In this document: positions 4,646 through 16,816 of the stretch, in pieces
How positions within the stretch are numbered: position 1 is the stretch's first letter
How the letters are laid out: each line of letters begins with the position of its first letter
NCBI GenBank assembly: GCA_018812525.1
Contig: JAHJDE010000185.1
Span: forward strand, 1-36,583
Source: Gammaproteobacteria bacterium
GTDB lineage: Bacteria > Pseudomonadota > Gammaproteobacteria > Chromatiales > Chromatiaceae
Direction of reading: 5' to 3'
DNA length: 36,583 nt
Notes under the pieces: generated by a model
Databases searched by the model: none
The model's input: the letters and a program-made list of their open reading frames with translations, nothing else
What the model was told of the DNA's origin: nothing
Translations under genes and position numbers: made by a program

Positions 4646-4721
4646 CCCCTTTGAGGAGCGTTGCGACGGGCAAAGGCCCGCCAGGCTCGAAGGGGAGTTC
4701 TTCAATCTAGCAACGGCGCTC
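4646..4721 (+). promoter_or_regulatory. S-adenosylhomocysteine (SAH) riboswitch
   Basis: The gap between metK and ahcY matches the SAH riboswitch class found upstream of ahcY. The P1 stem pairs 4646-4655 (CCCCTTTGAG) with 4686-4695 (CTCGAAGGGG), one G-T wobble. A P2 hairpin uses CGGG 4667-4670 and CCCG 4677-4680. The conserved core reads GAGGAGCG, then GCCAGGCTC. The downstream segment CAACGGCGCTC can form the pseudoknot, with GAGCG 4656-4660 pairing to CGCTC 4717-4721. Members of this class switch on ahcY when SAH builds up. It lies 25 bp before the ahcY ATG, so it controls ahcY and probably metF but not metK. Confidence 0.93.
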
Positions 4722-4746
4722 AACACAACCTTCTGGAGAGATACCA

Positions 4747-7246: not shown

Positions 7247-7990
7247 ATGCGCAACCCTCGCATCCATACCCCGCAGCCCCTGGCCGCCAATGTCGAGATA
7301 CGGCTGGAGGCCGAGGCATCCCAGCATCTCGTTCAGGTCCTGCGGCTGAGGACAGGGGCGGAAATCACCCTCTTCAACGGCGACGGGCGGGATTATCCGG
7401 CGATCCTGCTCAATGAGGGCAAGCGGGGGTGCCGGGCATTGATCCAGGTCCAAGGCCCCGAGGAGCCGCCCGCCTCGCTTAACCTTTCCCTCGCCATCGG
7501 CATCTCCAAGGGGGAGCGCATGGACATGGTCATGCAGAAGGCCGTCGAGCTTGGCGTTTCTCGGATCAGGCCCCTCTTTACCCGCCGATCCGTCGTCCAA
7601 CTGGCGGGGGACCGGCTGGAAAAACGGATGGGCCACTGGCACAAGGTCATGCTCGGCGCCTGCGAACAATCTGGCAGGAGTCGGTTGCCCGAGCTGGGGC
7701 CGGCAATGGGGTTCGACGACTGGTTAGGAGAGGAGAAGGTAGAGGGTCTGGGTCTGTTGCTCCATCCCGACGGAAAGGAGACCCTCTCATCCCTCACCCC
7801 ACCCAGACCCGGCCAGGCGGTCGAGATTCTCGTCGGCCCGGAGGGGGGGCTGACCGAGGAGGAGTCGAGCCAAGCCATCGCAGCCGGTTTCTTGGCGGTA
7901 CGCCTCGGTCCCCGCGTCCTCCGCACGGAAACGGCCCCGCTGGCTGCCATCGCGGCCATGCAGATGCTCTGGGGCGATTTCAGGGACTGA
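7247..7990 (+). CDS. rsmE: 16S rRNA (uracil1498-N3)-methyltransferase
   Basis: A 247-aa SPOUT-class (trefoil-knot) methyltransferase that uses SAM to methylate U1498 of 16S rRNA. It has the N-terminal PUA-like part (HLVQVLRLRTGAEITLFNGDG), the MDMVMQKAVELGVSRIRPLFTRRSV core, and the C-terminal knot EILVGPEGGLTEEE and RLGPRVLRTETAPLAAIA that binds SAM. Length fits (E. coli 243 aa). Start ATG 7247 follows GGAG 12 nt upstream; longer frames overlap metF. It lies 23 bp after metF and consumes the SAM made by this cluster. Its TGA stop coincides with the edge of the hairpin string at 7990-8142. Confidence 0.95.
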   Translation: MRNPRIHTPQPLAANVEIRLEAEASQHLVQVLRLRTGAEITLFNGDGRDYPAILLNEGKRGCRALIQVQGPEEPPASLNLSLAIGISKGERMDMVMQKAVELGVSRIRPLFTRRSVVQLAGDRLEKRMGHWHKVMLGACEQSGRSRLPELGPAMGFDDWLGEEKVEGLGLLLHPDGKETLSSLTPPRPGQAVEILVGPEGGLTEEESSQAIAAGFLAVRLGPRVLRTETAPLAAIAAMQMLWGDFRD

Positions 7991-8142
7991 GAGGTTTTTT
8001 CACAACCTCTTGCGGTTCAGGGATGAACCGCCATTTTCAATGGCCTAAGCCATTGAAAATGAAGAAAACGAAAATCGCATTTTTCGTTTTCGTCTTGCAA
8101 AATGGCCAGGAAGGCCATTTTGCAAGTTCCTCCTCTGAGAGG
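7990..8142. repeat. String of five to six consecutive hairpins
   Basis: Back-to-back inverted repeats: 7990-7996/8004-8010 (7 bp); 8012-8019/8024-8031 (8 bp, loop GGGA); 8032-8044/8049-8061 (13 bp, loop CTAA); 8064-8074/8081-8091 (11 bp, loop 6); 8094-8107/8113-8126 (14 bp, loop AGGAA); and a short 8132-8142 hairpin (4-5 bp). All the listed stems are perfect, with 0-5 bases between neighbours. An 8-bp direct repeat CTGAGAGG (7987-7994 and 8135-8142) marks both ends. The first hairpin, read on the minus strand, matches 19 of 21 bases with the left end of the element at 18172. The rest of the gap to 8234 shows nothing clear. Confidence 0.95.
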
Positions 8143-12068: not shown

Positions 12069-12280
12069 TTGCTTCATTTCTCCTGCGCAGGACCGGGACA
12101 CCCCGATCCATTGAAACCTTGTAGTGAATGAGAGAGCTTGCCGTTTTGCAAGAACCTCGGGCGGTTGGCAATTGTACACCAATTGCCGCGCCATTCACCA
12201 AGCGCAACAGTCGGTCTTTTGAGGGCAAGATTCAATCCCACAGAGATCGCTGGAATTGACCCTGGGCTGTATCAAATCTT

Positions 12281-16681: not shown

Positions 16682-16765
16682 GGGTGGCGCCGGGATCCAC
16701 CACCCTTTTCAGTCGCTTATCTGCGACTGAGAATGGGAGATCGAAAATCACCTTTACGATCTCCC
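16682..16765. repeat. Three consecutive hairpins after moeB
   Basis: Three inverted repeats in a row: GGGTGG/CCACCC (16682-16687/16700-16705), TCAGTCGC/GCGACTGA (16709-16716/16723-16730, loop 6) and GGGAGATCG/CGATCTCCC (16735-16743/16757-16765, loop 13). They begin just after the moeB stop and could terminate transcription, but their serial arrangement resembles the hairpin string at 7990-8142. Confidence 0.85.
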
Positions 16766-16816
16766 CCTGTCGCAACGTCCATGAAGGCTCGTTGTGGCAA
16801 TTTCTTATAAAAATAC

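Follow-up and report, generated by a model that had tools for sequence, protein, structure and literature searches.

Bacterial MITEs are usually regarded as decayed IS ends around junk. The described families (Correia/NEMIS, ERIC, Chunjie, QMITE1/2) are shorter than 500 bp, carry terminal inverted repeats and target duplications, lack a transposase of their own and occur intergenically at high copy number (PMC10969869, PMC2229807). The element described here has these features in common with them; most bacterial MITEs, however, form one long stem-loop from both ends (PMC2229807), whereas this element consists of five separate tandem hairpins, kept in one order across many families and with conserved loops. 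Coxiella QMITE1/2 were set aside as counterparts on account of size and duplication length, the duplications of QMITE2 being 7–11 nt compared with 4 nt here. The CIR repeats of Caulobacter are likewise intergenic, with a conserved motif in a hairpin loop and separate 5′ and 3′ arms, but they are alphaproteobacterial, two-armed and marked by a GANTC methylation motif (PMC2229807). REP/BIME sequences also provide many intergenic palindromes, yet they are single palindromes of 20–40 bp with GTAG/CGTC tags and without IS5-type duplications (PMC3733652), whereas the present element measures about 150 bp and has five different hairpins and IS5-like ends. With CsrB/CsrC and RsmX/Y/Z it shares GGA in several hairpin loops and the CANGGANG/CAGGAUG motifs; those RNAs, in contrast, are single-copy transcribed genes with promoters, while the element is a dispersed mobile repeat, known from DNA and without an Rfam match. 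No Rfam match at gathering score was obtained for the window element or 20 related loci, E-value mode returned chance-level hits only, and neither Rfam nor the open literature searched was found to describe a class-wide MITE with five hairpins, conserved loops and CsrA-type sites. The initial annotation had tentatively placed this form outside all known mobile elements, which, by these searches, holds for the five-hairpin, loop-conserved architecture but not for the kind of element, the IS5-type MITE; given the MITE features, the term 'categorically new' is unwarranted.

The window, i.e. the whole analysed stretch of 36,583 nucleotides (contig JAHJDE010000185.1, assembly GCA_018812525.1), belongs to a 3.5 Mb Chromatiaceae genome in 215 contigs, referred to as G000. 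The element was located at 7991–8132 (+) and is 97–98% identical to dozens of copies in the same genome. The left target-site duplication CTGA (7987–7990, +; read directly) includes the rsmE stop codon TGA, and the right CTGA (8135–8138, +) follows a 2-nt CT at 8133–8134. A CTGA stop codon is the insertion site of both the window copy and copy L002, and these two also share a variant left end, which is the chief difference of the window copy from the consensus. In the same-genus genome G001, rsmE ends at the same codon and the element is absent; since the two genomes are not syntenic downstream of the gene, this counts as an absence rather than a proven empty site.

Five tandem perfect stems of 7–14 bp had been reported behind rsmE, and this was borne out, with 100% complementarity in each stem between 7990 and 8126 and gaps of 0–2 bases. 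H1 (7990–8010, +, 7 bp) reads AGAGGTT-TTTTCAC-AACCTCT in the window and GAGGTTCTTGCA-AAAC-TGCAAGAACCTC in the consensus, and corresponds to the left terminal inverted repeat with its own inverted copy. H2 (8012–8031, +, 8 bp; GCGGTTCA-GGGA-TGAACCGC) carries the loop CAGGGATG (8018–8025), which matches CANGGANG; H2 together with CATTTT was considered as an intrinsic terminator and discarded as weak. It is followed by H3 (8032–8061, +, 13 bp; CATTTTCAATGGC-CTAA-GCCATTGAAAATG) and by H4 (8064–8091, +, 11 bp, read directly; GAAAACGAAAA-TCGCAT-TTTTCGTTTTC), the loop of which is mostly kept among copies as TCGCA/TCACA/CCACG-type. H5 (8094–8126, +, 14 bp; CTTGCAAAATGGCC-AGGAA-GGCCATTTTGCAAG) holds GGA within CCAGGAAGG (8106–8114), and its 3′ arm is the inner portion of the right terminal inverted repeat (8118–8132, −; consensus GAGGAACTTGCAAAA, read inward). 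The folding energy of the stretch was −83.9 kcal/mol compared with −43.7 ± 4.4 for 200 shuffled sequences (z = −9.1; none equally stable), so the hairpin string is not a product of chance. The proposed sixth hairpin at 8132–8142 (CCTC-TGA-GAGG) was dropped, its four pairs being made mostly with flanking DNA outside the repeat. The string CTGAGAGG noted at both ends is best interpreted as the duplication CTGA beside the element end GAGG, together with a flank fortuitously starting with GAGG; at its position copy L002 has only CTGAGA in common with the window copy. Elsewhere in the window, a second, degenerate copy at 16684–16799 (+) was detected with covariance model R1 (52 bits, E = 5e-14) and retains GGGA in the H2 loop, and a left-end remnant (GAGGTTCTTGCAAAACGGCAAGC) lies upstream of apbC/mrp at 12136–12158 (−). 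A SAH riboswitch (Rfam RF01057, 64 bits) was found between metK and ahcY at 4647–4728 (+).

Within G000 the element is dispersed and about 152 bp long. Its H3 core occurred at 178 places, compared with 0 for the reversed control, and dozens of copies are 95–98% identical to the window copy (best about 97–98%), with the consensus GAGGTTCTTGCAAAACTGCAAGAACCTC TT GCGGTTCAGGGATGAACCGC CATTTTCAATGGCCTAAGCCATTGAAAATG AA GAAAACGAAAAATCGCATTTTTCGTTTTC GC CTTGCAAAATGGCCAGGATGGCCATTTTGCAAG TTCCTC. Two matches from an exact scan of genome contigs for the H3 core were rejected, as they held the core without the other hairpins. Dozens of contigs start or stop inside a copy (e.g. L003, L005, L008, L012, L017), which makes the copy count for this genome approximate; element copies probably help to account for the fragmented assembly, in which multicopy ISs and the true copy number of the element may be under-represented. 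A variant form at L025 and L032 has an insertion of about 44 bp within the H4 region. The sequence GTCCAACTTATTTCCGGA.AGC.CCTAAG recurs beside copies at L004, L006, L037 and L194 as a second dispersed repeat, sometimes inverted. At L192 1501 (C75:5494), a MITE of about 107 bp was recorded with ends GAGG..CTTGCAAAA like those of the element, an ATTT duplication and an unrelated interior.

The structural features identify the element almost certainly as an IS5-type MITE. Its size ranges from about 142 to 205 bp, a transposase gene is absent and at least five hairpins fill it. The ends are imperfect terminal inverted repeats of about 15 bp (GAGGTTCTTGCAAAA/GAGGAACTTGCAAAA in G000) that vary by genome, reading GAGG(TT/AA)CTTGCAAAA in G000, GGG(C/G)ACCTTGAAAAA in the complete relative G033 and GGAAG(C/G)TCTGAATAA in G158. 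Direct repeats, for the most part of 4 bp, border the intact copies. The initial 1.6 Mb of G158 hold 52 full copies (28 of 153 bp and 24 of 205 bp); exact 4-bp target duplications were present at 45, and 36 of these 45 fit YTAR, the 4-bp target of IS5. Target duplications were further recognised for 19 of 30 copies in G033 and 11 of 18 in G000. At least 40 copies are present in G033, where the ends differ (GGGCACCTTGAAAAA) and the 4-bp duplications are clear; this genome also contains degenerate ISs whose 17-bp left end GGGCACCTTGAAAAATT is identical to that of its element and which have TTGA duplications. The transposase of these ISs, a protein read jointly from two degenerate copies, scored 234 bits against NCBIfam NF033581 ('IS5 family transposase'). 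G158 encodes an intact IS5-family transposase of 318 aa (353 bits) with related flanking ends and TTAG or TTAA duplications. The element thus shares the 4-bp YTAR duplication and related terminal repeats with IS5-family ISs but has an unrelated interior and no transposase gene. An intact cognate IS5 transposase was not found in G000 when searched by transposase family and terminal repeat, which returned only other small MITEs and fragments.

In G158 and G033, solo palindromes of 27–28 bp were observed that are made up of two terminal repeats joined together, some of them flanked by target duplications (G158 C1 396610, 1448475 and 226737; G033 L172), and other MITEs have the same ends around unrelated interiors. 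The solo palindromes are possibly the smallest mobile form; their duplications indicate that the terminal ends are probably enough for movement, which makes the interior a passenger needing its own explanation.

Three further observations concern mobile DNA in these genomes. Genome G026 holds another MITE family (loci L051, L191–L206) with ends GAGGTTCTTGCAAAA, an interior rich in CCCTCTCCC and 21 end matches. An intact IS5-family IS with a TTAA duplication lies within a CRISPR array (repeat GTGTTCCCCGCGCACGCGGGGATGAACCG) around 728600–729770 of G158 C1. At G158 C1:1455490–1456959, an insert that splits a five-hairpin element between H3 and H4 encodes a transposase-like protein of about 413 aa, putatively of the ISL3 family.

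A covariance model was built on H2–H5 and used for searches at E ≤ 1e-5. Of 369 genomes drawn from the whole class, 71 showed the same hairpin order, corresponding to 53 of 272 genera, as did 41 of 96 genomes of the family sample, with many copies per genome often seen among carriers; plasmids, phages, E. coli genomes and viral contigs gave no match to the element. Covariation was assessed on 48 copies from about 40 genomes. Of all stem cells 97.8% were paired, and 23 of the 30 modelled pairs had changes on both sides. Double-change cells numbered 230, compared with 55 after shuffling and no more than 39 after sliding of the alignment, and the covariation score was 0.50, compared with 0.17 and at most 0.11, respectively; the alignment was fitted to the model and so favours pairing, but both controls nonetheless differ greatly. 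Most positions of the interior stems differ between genera while pairing stays, and the terminal repeats differ between lineages and are more diverged than the loops. The very strong covariation across genera upholds the earlier suggestion of selection on structure, and a single-genome feature without compensatory changes, named in advance as the outcome that would speak against it, is not what the related genomes and the covariance model revealed. Recent formation, which had also been suggested, applies to the nearly identical G000 copies, i.e. to a recent amplification, but not to the architecture, which is old and class-wide. When stems were re-extracted by Watson–Crick rules only, G-T and A-C cells stood at 52:12, or 16:12 by distinct events, which leaves strand polarity suggestive only. 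It is highly likely that the interior is under selection for single-strand structure.

The CsrA site is described by the SELEX consensus RUACARGGAUGU, the CsrB repeats CAGGA(U/A/C)G and an ANGGAN hexaloop (PMC7652899). Among the 48 copies, the loops of H2 and H5 are kept as CANGGANG/CA(N)GGANG. H2 loops contained CANGGANG in 43/48 and GGA in 47/48 copies; for H5, GGA was present in 46/48 and the full CANGGANG in 18/48. GGA was found in only one of the 48 H3 loops and in none of the H4 loops. As the covariance model was drawn from GGA-loop copies, recruitment favours such loops, although the H3 loops recruited by that model vary freely. The commonest H2 (GCACAGGGAUGUGC) includes ACARGGAUGU of the SELEX consensus, with an ANGGAN hexaloop closed by C-G, and among H5 loops the CsrB repeat CAGGAUG is seen most often. 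On the same strand, the 205-bp subtype of G158 carries two additional hairpins, with loops CACGGATG and CAGGGAGG that both conform to CANGGANG, and the csrA product of this genome is 80% identical to E. coli CsrA. Against a CsrA role stand the H2 stems of 7–8 bp, whose stability exceeds that of most SELEX ligands (PMC7652899). A promoter-like site was not found in the window copy, and the insert at L025 and L032 holds a palindrome resembling H2 (GGTACAGGGATGTACC), but on the other strand; both points were counted against function as RNA. Judged from the sequence evidence, the case for CsrA/RsmA binding as a main function is evenly balanced.

Genomic context was evaluated with gene calls from codon-usage scoring. 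Intergenic copies made up 43/45 in G158, of which 84% is coding, and 32/35 in G033, and both seemingly intragenic G000 copies are located at stop codons. Orientation bias relative to neighbouring genes was absent among the copies examined in G000, G033 and G158. Singleton mutations in G033 copies comprised 21 G-T, 18 A-C, 40 other and 12 re-paired events. Resident copies thus appear to decay neutrally, with pairs broken freely in singletons, and individual copies seem dispensable to the host. Given this decay, the intergenic placement and the missing orientation bias, the target of selection seems to be the propagating lineage; retention of structure and loops in that lineage speaks for an advantage to the element itself rather than for its domestication as a regulator of the host.

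Taken together, a MITE moved by an IS5-type transposase whose hairpin array acts as a CsrA-binding RNA is the best explanation and is considered fairly probable. An IS5-type transposase would act on the terminal inverted repeats of about 15 bp and move the element, generating a 4-bp duplication, mostly YTAR where tested. RNA of the + strand would arise through read-through from neighbouring genes, and the array may then work as single-stranded RNA, showing two GGA hairpins (four in the 205-bp subtype) to CsrA/RsmA. The transposition step is drawn from sequence evidence, and we infer this RNA and CsrA step from motif and covariation only. The element would accordingly resemble a dispersed CsrB/RsmZ fragment, a mobile, multicopy CsrA-binding RNA, and its candidate gain could be CsrA titration, or protection or destabilisation of transcripts bearing it. 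The wider proposal of a class-wide transposable family with a CsrA/RsmA-binding RNA array as cargo, whose bursts sow hundreds of CsrA sites per genome and so engage the global post-transcriptional regulator of the host, is put forward tentatively.

Alternatively, the array might work as single-stranded or cruciform DNA in transposition, for instance as an enhancer or host-factor site for the IS5-type transposase; the loops would then be recognised as DNA, and their likeness to the CsrA site would be coincidental. Neutral-looking resident copies beside a structured propagating lineage are what is expected if structure matters for mobility only, the absent orientation bias is in keeping with this, and the terminal repeats fold locally as part of H1 and H5. 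This DNA role is nevertheless unlikely: the solo palindromes with duplications and the same-end MITEs with other interiors indicate that the array is unneeded for movement, and the loops, including those of the two additional hairpins, match the CsrA site very closely. Matched pairs could also be made without selection through template switching between arms (quasipalindrome correction), and within G033, 12 of the 91 singleton events are indeed double changes; the same data, however, contain 79 uncorrected mismatches, and loops kept across genera in a fixed hairpin order are left unexplained, which renders a mutational origin improbable. It is more doubtful still that the hairpins are bidirectional terminators or insulators rendering insertions harmless: nearly all copies are intergenic and the window copy contains two terminator-like matches, but a T-run is absent after the strongest stems, orientation bias is lacking and the conserved GGA loops are not accounted for. 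An ordinary IS5-derived MITE with an interior conserved through recent common descent and horizontal spread alone would fit the high identity within genomes, but is very improbable, as stems differ between genera at most positions and are still paired, and the terminal repeats have diverged beyond the loops.

The element also lends itself to testing, as natural insertions whose orientation and neighbours are known number in the hundreds. Compensatory evolution keeps the multi-hairpin interior across dozens of genera while the ends change, so that the interior is the conserved part of the element. If the loops bind CsrA, transposable elements would be tied to a major global regulator of gammaproteobacteria and would supply new CsrA sites, much as eukaryotic transposons spread transcription-factor sites; genes could then be placed under CsrA control, or CsrA could be titrated, by the element.
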